From NCBI RefSeq assembly GCF_013032855.1, contig NZ_WQDA01000001.1, positions 441,501 to 505,500 on the forward strand: a stretch of DNA of 64,000 bases. The letters run 5' to 3'. Made by a program: the position numbers and the translations under genes. The stretch's first letter is position 1. Each line of letters begins with the position of its first letter. This document shows positions 27,431 through 31,642 of this stretch, piece after piece. A model generated the notes under the pieces. It saw only the letters and a list, made by a program, of their open reading frames with translations. It was not told the origin of the DNA and made no database searches. The DNA is from Ruegeria arenilitoris (GTDB lineage Bacteria > Pseudomonadota > Alphaproteobacteria > Rhodobacterales > Rhodobacteraceae).

Positions 27431-28258
27431 ATGTCCAACGCCCAACTGGAAACCGCCATCGAGGCCGCATGGGAGGCCCGCGACACGATCACGCCCGCCA
27501 CCACCGGTGAACAGCGCGAAGCGATCGAGGACACGCTGAACGCGCTGGACAGCGGCACGCTGCGGGTCGCCGAGAAGCAGGCCGATGGCAGCTGGCATGT
27601 GAACCAGTGGGCCAAGAAGGCGGTTCTGCTGGGCTTTCGCATCAAGGACATGGAAATTCAGTCCGGCGGCCCGCAGGGCGGCGGCTGGTGGGACAAGGTC
27701 GACAGCAAATTCGCCGGCTGGGGTGAAAACCAGTGGCGCGCGGCCGGTTTCCGCGCGGTGCCCAACTGCGTGGTTCGCAAGTCGGCCTATATCGCGCCGG
27801 GCGTGGTGCTGATGCCGTCTTTCGTGAACCTCGGCGCCTATGTGGACGAAGGCACGATGGTCGATACCTGGGCCACCGTCGGGTCCTGCGCGCAGATCGG
27901 CAAGAACGTCCACCTGTCCGGCGGCGTCGGCATCGGCGGCGTGCTGGAACCCATGCAGGCCGGCCCGACCATCATCGAGGACAACTGCTTCATCGGCGCC
28001 CGCTCCGAGGTGGTCGAGGGCTGCATCATCCGCGAGGGCTCGGTTCTGGGCATGGGCGTCTATATCGGCCAGTCCACCAAGATCGTCGACCGCGAGTCGG
28101 GCGAGGTGTTCTATGGCGAGGTGCCGCCCTATTCGGTGGTGGTGTCCGGTTCGATGCCGTCAAAGAACGGGATCAACCTGTACTGTGCGGTGATCGTGAA
28201 GCGGGTGGATGAAAAGACCCGCTCGAAGACCGGGATCAACGAGCTGCTGCGCGATTGA
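27431..28258 (+). CDS. dapD: 2,3,4,5-tetrahydropyridine-2,6-dicarboxylate N-succinyltransferase
   Basis: Transfers succinyl from succinyl-CoA to tetrahydrodipicolinate in the succinylase branch of lysine and meso-diaminopimelate synthesis, feeding peptidoglycan. The 275-residue length is typical. The left-handed beta-helix is visible as hexapeptide repeats (about 105-220, for example [24 protein letters not shown] and [15 protein letters not shown]). DapE, two steps later, lies 2.2 kb downstream in the same direction but separated by other genes. A clean terminator follows at 28283. Confidence 0.95.
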
Positions 28259-28330: not shown

Positions 28331-28762
28331 CTATCCCGTCTTGTAGTCGGCAAGATCCTCGGGCGCGTGCAGAAGGGTGCCTTCGTATTTCGGCAAGTCA
28401 TCGCGCAGTTCCAGCCAAGGCAGCTTGCTTTGATAATTGACGTGAAAGGCTGGCGCAAAGTCCGAAGGGTCTTCCAACGAGGCCGCGTACAGGTGCATCC
28501 CGCCTTCATAGTGGTCGGCCTCGAACCCCATCGGAGAGCCACAGGTTGCGCAGAAATGCCGCTGGACGCCTTTCGAACTGGCAAAACTACGCGGTGTTGC
28601 GGCGGTCCATCGGAAATTGCGCAAGGGAACGCCCAACCACGCGACCACGGGCGCGGCGCAGTTGCGGCGGCAATCGTCACAATGGCAGTAGCAGCTCCAG
28701 GTCTCGGCGCCCTCAAACTCCCAGCGGGTTTCACCGCACAGGCAGCGGCCGCGTTTGGTCAT
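28331..28762 (-). CDS. GFA-family (glutathione-dependent formaldehyde-activating-like) protein
   Basis: A 143-residue zinc protein with the GFA pattern: CLCGETRWEFEG near the N-terminus (C8, C10), CYCHCDDCRR (C25, C27, C30), and HFCATCGSPMGF (C70, C73). These cysteines hold one structural and one catalytic-type zinc. The name comes from Gfa of Paracoccus, proposed to condense formaldehyde with glutathione; most homologues are of unknown role. The start at ATG 28760-28762 follows GGAGGACATC on the minus strand; the longer open frame upstream has no comparable site. Confidence 0.8.
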   Translation of the reverse strand: MTKRGRCLCGETRWEFEGAETWSCYCHCDDCRRNCAAPVVAWLGVPLRNFRWTAATPRSFASSKGVQRHFCATCGSPMGFEADHYEGGMHLYAASLEDPSDFAPAFHVNYQSKLPWLELRDDLPKYEGTLLHAPEDLADYKTG

Positions 28763-28898
28763 GATGTCCTCCGTCGTTTTTCGCGACCAGTCTGACTGGA
28801 CGGTGGGCCTGAGCGCGTCAAAAAACGACACGGCATCCGGGAACCGCGTCCAGCTGCCATGCTTGACCATCGACCGGCCCCCGGCTAAGGCCCACGGC

Positions 28899-29246
28899 AT
28901 GGAAAAGCAAAAGAAACCCTCGCGCCAGCAGGTCTATACTCTGTTGGTCCAGATTGGCCGCAAGGATGGCGACGGCCTGCCCGAAGGCGCCACCGGCGCG
29001 GCGCTCATGTGCTATGCCAGCGGCGTGGACGAGGCCGAGGCCGTGCGCGAAACCGTGGCCATTCTCAAGCAGGCCGACACGGCTCCGCTGGACGTGACCG
29101 GCTATGGCACCCTGGCCGAGCGCGAGGCGCAGGGGCATGAGATCGACCCGGACGAACGCGCGCTGATGCAGAGGGCGCTTGAGGAAAACGCGGTTATTGT
29201 TGCGCAGATGACGCCCTTCTTTGGCGAAAAGCCCGAAGGCGCCTAG
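28899..29246 (+). CDS. Conserved hypothetical protein, 115 residues
   Basis: A soluble, acidic, helical protein starting [35 protein letters not shown]. It has no signal peptide, membrane segment or metal motif. The pattern (a basic head, a glycine-rich turn, then [34 protein letters not shown]) suggests a small alpha/beta fold. The start at 28899 is chosen because the upstream open frame runs through the GFA promoter region. It ends head-on against the receptor-like gene with a 4-base overlap of stop codons. I do not recognise the family. Confidence 0.6.
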
Positions 29247-30301
29247 CGGCGCGTGCCGAACCACTTGCGATAGATCTGGTCATAGGTGCCATCTTCGCGG
29301 AGGCCCAGAAGCGCCTGGTTCACATCCTCGACCAGAGGTGACCCGGTCGGGAAGACGATACCGTAGTTTTCGCGCAGGAAGACGCCGCCGGTCATTGCCG
29401 CAATCTTGCGGCCTTCATGTGCGGCGAAATACGACAGGATCGGTGCGTCGAACACGACGGCATCTAGGTCCCCATCCTTGAACGCGGTCAACATGCTGTC
29501 CAGGTCTTCGTACCCGTTGAATTCGACCTCGCGCCGGTTCAGGAAACTGGCGGCGGTCGAACCCGAGATTGTCCCGACCTGTTTGCCGTACAGATCATTG
29601 ACCGAGTTGATGTTGCTGGTGATCGCATCCACCGTCATGACCGAGGTGATCCTTGCGGTGAAAACCGACACGATGAACAGCGAGGATACGACCAGGATCA
29701 CACCCAGAATTCGCCCGAATGGGGTCCGGGGCATCCGCTCTTCAAATCCGCCATTGACCACCAGGTTCAACGCCCACCAGAAGGATGGGAACCAGGCCTC
29801 GTTCAGGTCGCGGTCGAAATAGGGTTGGGATCGGCGTTCGAACCCCCACATCAGCATGCCGCCACCCAGCAGGATGGCAAAGGCCAGCCCGATGGCGATG
29901 AACAGCTCGCGTGACAGCAGCGCCTGCATCAAGGACGGGCTGCGCGCCGCGTCTGATGGTACCATGATCTGAAGGCCCGCTTCGAAAATCGGTTGGCTAA
30001 AATCCATCCGGGCTTCTCGGCCTGCGGTGATCGAAATATTCGCGATCGCCATGTCGGCTTCGCGGTTCTCGACCGCCGACAGCATGTCCCCGAACGCGTC
30101 GACTCGAACGACCGTGTATTCCCAGCCCAGTTCTTCAGCCAGCGCGGCCAGCAGGTCCATTGAGAAGCCGGTGCCCTCGCCCTCATCCACATACGAGAAC
30201 GGAGGACGCTCCACCGTCGTGACCGTCAGAGTTTCGGCTTGGCTGTGTTGTGCAAAGACCGCGAAGGTCAGGCAGATCAATGCGAAAAGGGCGCGCGTCA
30301 T
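29243..30301 (-). CDS. Prokaryotic ionotropic glutamate receptor-like channel
   Basis: A 352-residue protein with a signal peptide (1-22), a periplasmic amino-acid-binding lobe S1 (about 23-117), TM1 (131-152), a re-entrant pore loop (about 168-187), TM2 (197-217) and lobe S2 (222-352). This is the S1-M1-P-M2-S2 order of bacterial GluR0. R95 in [14 protein letters not shown] matches the glutamate-carboxylate-binding arginine of animal receptors, and D285 in S2 matches their late acidic ligand residue. [11 protein letters not shown] at the end of TM2 matches the SYTANLAAFLTV gate motif. There is no TVGYGD filter. It probably forms a tetrameric ligand-gated cation channel. The alternative, an ABC binding protein, is excluded by the two membrane segments inside the domain. 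Confidence 0.8.
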
Positions 30302-30502: not shown

Positions 30503-31642
30503 ATGACCGACTCTGTCCAGTTGACCGCAGACCTGATCCGTTGCCCCTCGGTCACACCCGAGGAAGGCGGGGCGCTGATTCTGCTGGAAGATATCCTGGC
30601 GCGGGCCGGTTTCACCTGCACGCGGGTGGATCGCGGCGGCGTCTGCAACCTGTTCGCCCGGTGGGGCGACAAGGGGCATGCGCGCAGTTTCGGGTTCAAC
30701 GGCCATACCGACGTGGTGCCGGTGGGCGATGAGGCCGCATGGACCCGCCCGCCGTTCGGCGCGGAAATCCATGATGGCATTCTGTACGGTCGGGGCGCGA
30801 CCGACATGAAATCGGGGGTGGCGGCCTTTGTCGCGGCGGCGGTGGATTTCGTGCGCGACACCTCGCCCGACGGGGCGATCATCCTGACTATCACGGGGGA
30901 CGAAGAAGGCGATGCGGTGGACGGCACCACCGCGCTGCTGGACTACATGCAGGCGCAAGACGAGCGGATGTCGGTCTGTCTGGTGGGCGAGCCGACCTGC
31001 CCCAACGAGATGGGCGAGATGATGAAGATCGGCCGCCGCGGGTCGATGACCGCGTGGTTCGAGGTGACGGGCGTGCAGGGTCATTCGGCCTATCCGCATC
31101 GCGCCAGGAACCCGCTGCCGGCCTTGGCGCGGCTGATGGATCGGCTGGCCAGTCACGAACTGGATCGGGGGACGGACCATTTCGACGCTTCGACCCTGGC
31201 GGTGGTCACGATGGACACCGGCAACGCGGCCACCAACGTCATTCCCGCCCAGTGCCGTGGCGCGGTGAACATCCGGTTCAACGACCTGCATACAGGCGCC
31301 AGCCTCAGTGACTGGCTGAAGGCGCAGGCAGCCGACGTGGCGGCCGAGTTCGGCGTGCAGATCGACACGCGGATCAAGGTCTCGGGCGAAAGCTTTCTGA
31401 CCCCTCCGGGGCCGCTGTCGGAACTGGTGGCCCGCGCGGTCGAGGCCGAGACCGGCCGCCGGCCCGAGCTGTCCACCACCGGGGGCACCTCGGACGCGCG
31501 GTTCATCAAGGATCATTGCCCCGTGGTCGAGTTCGGCCTGGTCGGACGCACCATGCACCAGGTGGACGAATCCGTCCCGGTCGAGCAGATCCGCCAGCTC
31601 AAGGCGATCTATGCCCGGATCCTGGCCGATTATTTCGCCTGA
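30503..31642 (+). CDS. dapE: Succinyl-diaminopimelate desuccinylase
   Basis: Releases succinate from N-succinyl-LL-diaminopimelate to give LL-DAP, for lysine and peptidoglycan. The 379-residue M20-family metallopeptidase shows the zinc ligands H68 and D70 (GHTDVVP), D101 ([10 protein letters not shown]), catalytic E135 with E136 ([11 protein letters not shown]) and the dimerisation domain ([22 protein letters not shown]). The C-terminal [14 protein letters not shown] supplies the last His ligand. It pairs with dapD upstream. The divergent receptor-like gene starts 201 bases away, leaving room for promoters. Confidence 0.93.

Follow-up and report, generated by a model that had tools for sequence, protein, structure and literature searches.

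The stretch of DNA analysed here, referred to as the window, comprises 64 000 nucleotides of Ruegeria arenilitoris (assembly GCF_013032855.1, contig NZ_WQDA01000001.1, positions 441,501 to 505,500). At 29243..30301 on the minus strand it carries a gene with an ATG start that encodes a prokaryotic ionotropic glutamate receptor homologue of 352 residues followed by a stop codon. The original prediction, made from the sequence letters, had proposed a bacterial glutamate receptor with an animal-like pore loop at this place, and the open reading frame and the quoted motifs are present as described. All features of the receptor lie on the minus strand. A signal peptide (residues 1–22, 30236..30301), assigned by eye from the ending SQA followed by ET and seen as a helix of residues 2–20 in the model, abuts the S1 half of the ligand-binding domain (residues 23–118, 29948..30235; Pfam PF10613 over residues 24–115), which contains S90, T92 and R95. 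R95 (30017..30019), in a motif of 14 residues, is the predicted α-carboxylate-binding arginine on the basis of its conservation and the role described in PMC2950845. The M1 transmembrane helix (residues 131–155, 29837..29911, from AlphaFold2 models) is followed by a re-entrant pore helix (residues 166–182, 29756..29806; helix 166–183 in one model and 170–182 in the other) and by the filter NGGFEER (residues 183–189, 29735..29755, from conservation and alignments), in which N183, within a motif of 12 residues, is the position equivalent to the Q/R/N site. M2, corresponding to M3 of eukaryotic receptors (residues 194–228, 29618..29722, from the models; Pfam PF00060 over residues 141–242), contains an 11-residue motif, and a further motif of 21 residues was located in the protein. 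The S2 half of the ligand-binding domain (residues 229–352, 29246..29617, from PDB matches), with S248, T249 and D285, ends the protein; there is no amino-terminal domain and no M4. The genome of 3.8 Mb holds a single full-length match to the gene, and one further place covers residues 41–132 alone.

The hidden Markov model searches that had been suggested gave scores over the cut-off for both Lig_chan (PF00060, 49.6 bits, cut-off 30.8) and Lig_chan-Glu_bd (PF10613, 46.8 bits, cut-off 30); together with two predicted structures, which place a pore helix, ending at N183, and a loop between M1 and M2, they bear out the S1–M1–P–M2–S2 order. The best Pfam score was that of SBP_bac_3 (108.6 bits, cut-off 26.4), and 15 NCBIfam rows, all below the cut-off, were mostly ABC (ATP-binding cassette) binding proteins. 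An ordinary ABC-type solute-binding protein devoid of a pore loop is nevertheless ruled out: ABC amino-acid binding proteins have an uninterrupted SBP_bac_3 domain and no pore, whereas here the domain, spanning residues 28–349, is split by an insert of about 100 residues with two transmembrane helices and a pore loop, and ionotropic glutamate receptor chains match the full-length protein. The closest solved sequence is the ligand-binding core of a Nostoc punctiforme receptor (PDB entry 2pyy, E = 1.4e-46), with L-glutamate in the entry title and the ligand-binding domain alone solved; GluA2, GLR3.4 and GluN1 were also among the 60 PDB matches listed. The ligand-binding domain is 41% identical to 2pyy, with a root-mean-square deviation of 1.3 over 212 residues, and it superposes equally well on ABC binding proteins and on the ligand-binding domains of receptors.

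The original prediction had also held that a potassium-type filter is missing, and this proved correct: TVGYGD does not occur in the protein, NGGFEE stands in its place and the K+ channel model Ion_trans_2 scored 19.5 bits, below its cut-off of 22.5. Relatives were kept as numbered loci (the best 80 of 211 confirmed); the closest named ones are from Ruegeria, L001 of R. intermedia being 91% identical, and NGGFEER is exact in all 80. A survey of 295 genomes of the family gave matches at E = 1e-20 or better in 80 genomes (83 places) and close orthologues, at E = 2.4e-91 or better, a line drawn after the table was seen, in 63 genomes (64 places); roughly one in five of the family genomes surveyed has the NGGFE filter class. 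Of the 64 close orthologous places, 63 retain N183 and 61 the full NGGFEER, the exceptions being L166 (SGGFG), L167 (NGGFEV) and L189 (NGSFEE). Residues 171–189 are nearly all invariant in an alignment of 48 orthologues. NGGFEE at the place of TVGYGD is thus a strictly conserved filter class with the asparagine of N-methyl-D-aspartate (NMDA) receptors at its apex, and this is new here: among the matches listed from the open-licence literature no title or abstract start deals with the class, and the letters NGGFEE or VVNGGF were found in no paper of that literature. One genome contains two NGGFEER receptor genes (G454:C3:4795-5829, L151, and G454:C61:140197-141207, L177). Across the phylum, PF00060 exceeded its cut-off in 22 of 398 evenly drawn genomes.

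The predicted ligand arginine, R95, is invariant in the 48 orthologues, as are S248, T249 and D285, and also in all 28 rows of an alignment hand-picked for diversity; in 51 hand-chosen bacterial rows the ligand arginine was found in 50 and the S2 aspartate in 47. The D285 column holds the Asp of GluN1 and GluN2B and the Glu of GluA2. The ratio of nonsynonymous to synonymous substitution rates (dN/dS), calculated against six orthologues, was 0.08–0.15 for the whole gene and 0.03–0.13 for residues 130–230, the values being rough in three of the six comparisons because dS exceeds 1 there; the gene is under purifying selection. These values bear on the proposal that the protein is a non-conducting amino-acid sensor or binding protein, anchored in the membrane and with a vestigial pore, for which the equal superposition of its ligand-binding domain on ABC binding proteins speaks. 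The pore helix and filter are more constrained than the gene as a whole, and the five neighbouring genes checked with Pfam, one of them a GntR-type regulator, include no permease or signalling enzyme; a vestigial pore is accordingly held to be improbable.

Prokaryotic receptors lacking a K+ filter are already known. Ger et al. (2010) divided 22 prokaryotic receptors into Group 1, twelve proteins with a K+ filter, and Group 2, ten proteins with unrecognised pores (PMC2950845). They argued that Group 2 stands nearer than Group 1 to the eukaryotic receptors, and suggested that its members be annotated as putative glutamate-sensitive ion channels (PMC2950845). Group 2 shares with the present receptor the domain order, the conserved ligand Arg and Asp and a pore without K+ signature; its P regions were matched in the main text to no channel of known selectivity, and no filter class was defined there at residue level (PMC2950845). 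Judged by its topology and pore, the receptor belongs to Group 2. One Group 2 member, YP_168531.1, is listed as 'glutamine ABC transporter, periplasmic' (PMC2950845). Among the loci collected here, the R. pomeroyi relative L049 is 70% identical to the receptor and lies beside the same genes. YP_168531.1 is presumably a Ruegeria (Silicibacter) pomeroyi protein. GluR0 of Synechocystis, a Group 1 receptor, has the filter TVGYGD, in contrast to NGGFEE here; PMC13099474 attributes K+ transport activity to GluR0 and reports that expression in E. coli placed both ends outside the cell.

The placement of N183 at the Q/R/N site, originally made by eye, was supported by an ungapped pore alignment with GluN1, whose score of 83 compares with a mean of 25 for shuffles (standard deviation 5) and was reached by none of 500. 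Common to both proteins are the Asn, Gly at +2, Glu at +5, PR and RILG; GluN1 differs in its gate residues and in possessing an amino-terminal domain and M4. In a 54-row alignment the N183 column holds Asn in GluN1 and GluN2B, Gln in GluA2 and, in K+-type filters, the first Thr of TVGYGD, and the E188 column Glu in GluN1 and Asp in GluA2. NGGFEE also aligned without gaps to the TVGYGD of K+ channels (phmmer, residues 128–220, PDB), with N183 opposite the first Thr; that the K+ filter and the Q/R/N site overlap is likewise stated in PMC3483616. The highest pairwise pore scores belonged to other bacterial receptors, namely L098 (TMGGFE) with 128, L101 (TNASFT) with 112 and the K+-type L091 and L087 with 98 and 97. 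Some bacterial receptors fell below GluN1 (cyanobacterial L116, 80; L083, 70). The remaining eukaryotic scores were 76 for GluA2, 55 for GLR3.4 and 41 for GluN2B. K+ channels scored about as high as GluN1, with 86 for Lmo2059 and 78 for KvAP (PDB entry 1orq), over shorter stretches of 46 and 50 residues. Shuffle means were 23–25 with standard deviations of about 5, and only the GluN2B score was reached by shuffles (3 of 500).

Descent was addressed with a tree of 51 bacterial rows hand-chosen for diversity and three animal receptors (GluN1, GluN2B and GluA2), calculated from the transmembrane region plus S2 with the pore columns removed. The bacterial rows were taken from loci other than L001–L080 (L049 being retained), L084, L094, L103, L105–L107, L109–L112, L115, L118, L119, L121, L124, L127–L155 (L132, L149 and L154 being retained) and L173–L204. 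Eleven rows, ten with NGGFE and one with SGGFG, form the clade of the window receptor (support 100/99), which is adjoined by two TNASFT rows (98/91). A K+-type filter occurs in 16 of the 51 bacterial rows, and the exchange between K+ and non-K+ filters requires at least three changes on the tree. The animal receptors, on long branches, had no supported position among the groups. One alternative is that the Asn was inherited, with NGGFE receptors as the bacterial sister of the NMDA or of all animal receptors; the residues shared with GluN1 and the placement of Group 2 by Ger et al. favour such descent. Yet in approximately unbiased (AU) tests, whose constraint sets were chosen with the tree already known, the union of the 11 rows with the three animal receptors, apart from other bacterial receptors, was rejected (p = 0.0023), and the same set with the four nearest bacterial rows added was neither rejected nor favoured (p = 0.147). 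The site also varies among the bacterial rows (T 19, N 12, S 10, K 3, Q 2, gap 2, M 1, R 1, D 1). Since the test rejects the animal receptors with this clade alone, the shared Asn is most simply explained as independent, and it is probably an independent gain, with animal sampling thin at three rows; common inheritance is considered rather improbable. With the highest pore scores among bacterial receptors and the pore fold nearer to K+ channels (see below), a special link of the pore to animal receptors was not supported, and 'animal-like' overstates its character. According to PMC3483616, plant receptors show no greater closeness to animal receptors than to bacterial ones.

Further filter variants were observed among the loci. 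Proteobacterial receptors L102, L104, L123 (Photobacterium) and L124 (Vibrio) have T(R/K)GPFNY for TVGYGD, with Arg or Lys in the Q/R/N column, while L092 and L126, nested within a clade of K+-type receptors, have Gln there (TQAGAA and TQASTG). Plasmid-borne alphaproteobacterial receptors (L113–L115, L117–L122 and L125) have a filter of roughly xxG(K/R) followed by an RKNLFGW-like stretch; those in the tree (L113, L114, L117, L120, L122 and L125) form one clade (100/100). By eye, L115 (TNGK) shows a second Asn near the Q/R/N site in an unrelated filter, a further point against an inherited Asn. Salmonella plasmids (H20–H22) encode a protein, annotated as a substrate-binding-domain protein, that matches over the full length at about 24% identity.

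The receptor is probably a periplasmic amino-acid-gated cation channel of the non-K+-filter branch (Group 2) that is not strictly K+-selective. The signal peptide would export the protein, which would lie in the inner membrane, S1 and S2 facing the periplasm, and four subunits would form the pore. An α-amino acid would be held by R95, D285 and probably S248/T249; its binding would shut the two-lobed clamshell, pull on M2 and open the gate. Ions would then cross an inverted K+-channel-type pore with NGGFEE for TVGYGD, in which four Asn would encircle the apex and the acidic E187 and E188 would lie beneath. Because this Asn ring and the acidic residues replace TVGYGD, a cation channel without strict selection for K+ is expected. 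According to PMC12226733, Ca2+ permeation in a placozoan receptor increased about 10-fold when the Ser at the Q/R/N site was replaced by Gln and about 3-fold when it was replaced by Asn, and polyamine block requires an Asp at the fourth position after this site.

Several observations weigh against this interpretation. A PDB search with the pore alone returned Lmo2059 (E = 2.7e-4) and 1orq (4.5e-4), with GluN1 (0.026) ranked below chance-like designed armadillo repeats (0.0066), and the fold of the transmembrane domain is nearest to the pores of KCNQ, Kv and KcsA; a preference for K+ is possible because the domain is nearer to K+ channels in both comparisons. PMC12226733 further describes an equivalent +4 Asp in the K+-type GluR0, and acidic residues at this place are therefore no mark of a non-K+ filter. 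In the monomer models the mean predicted local distance difference test (pLDDT) score of the filter was 67 (residues 181–190) and 73 (residues 180–189), and two of five full-length models averaged 66–67. The three Arg in each of the M1–P and filter–M2 stretches are accompanied by three acidic residues in the former and two in the latter, so the positive-inside rule supports the topology weakly. S248/T249 align one column off the serines of GluA2 and GluN2B. The gate motif that had been likened to that of ionotropic glutamate receptors is present, but when FTARITSV is aligned to the eukaryotic YTANLAAF T-A alone is retained, and many orthologues have V instead of this T. Searches of the open-licence literature turned up no functional study of an NGGFE-filter receptor. 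The search and fold results, and the K+-type filters within the same tree set, would also agree with a receptor that has remained a K+ channel in the manner of GluR0, G185 and F186 being the Gly–aromatic pair of a modified, K+-preferring filter. This is thought unlikely, as the filter (N-G-G-F-E) agrees with TVGYG at just one position of five in 61 of the 64 close orthologous places and Ion_trans_2 stayed below its cut-off.

The surroundings of the gene were compared over flanks of at most 4 kb, shorter at some loci, so that flank counts are lower bounds. A conserved open reading frame on the plus strand (28755..29246; 163 residues as listed, the true start probably being later) lies tail to tail with the receptor, the stops overlapping by 4 bp in the window; it was present in the flanks of at least 76 of 80 loci and gave no Pfam match at E = 1 and no NCBIfam match at 0.01. 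Pfam further identified a dapE-like M20 peptidase gene (30503..31642, plus strand, divergent from the receptor; at least 77 of 80 loci), dapD for tetrahydrodipicolinate N-succinyltransferase (27431..28258, plus strand; at least 59 of 80) and, between dapD and the conserved frame, a gene of the glutathione-dependent formaldehyde-activating (GFA) family (28331–28900, minus strand), found in two of the 80 related loci. The order of dapE, the conserved frame and dapD is fixed across the flanks. The neighbourhood hints at no clear function for the receptor.

The receptor touches on the question of how a K+ filter could become the non-selective, calcium-passing filters of brain glutamate receptors: it is small, conserved and presumably a homomer, and its pore, in other respects like that of a K+ channel, carries an NMDA-type residue. 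Because it is small and presumably homomeric, the filter change could be measured in the absence of M4, amino-terminal domains and mixed subunits. A more speculative and doubtful extension is that the NGGFE receptors are homomeric minimal channels in which a K+ filter, independently of animals, became calcium-permeable and polyamine-sensitive, with Asn at its apex and an acidic lining, that amino-acid-gated Na+/Ca2+ entry serves alphaproteobacteria as a fast environmental signal, and that the bacterial tree, with T, N, Q, S, K and R at the site, is a natural mutational series for the loss of K+ selectivity. If Ca2+ or Na+ is conducted, the receptor would represent a new route of fast sensing in marine bacteria.
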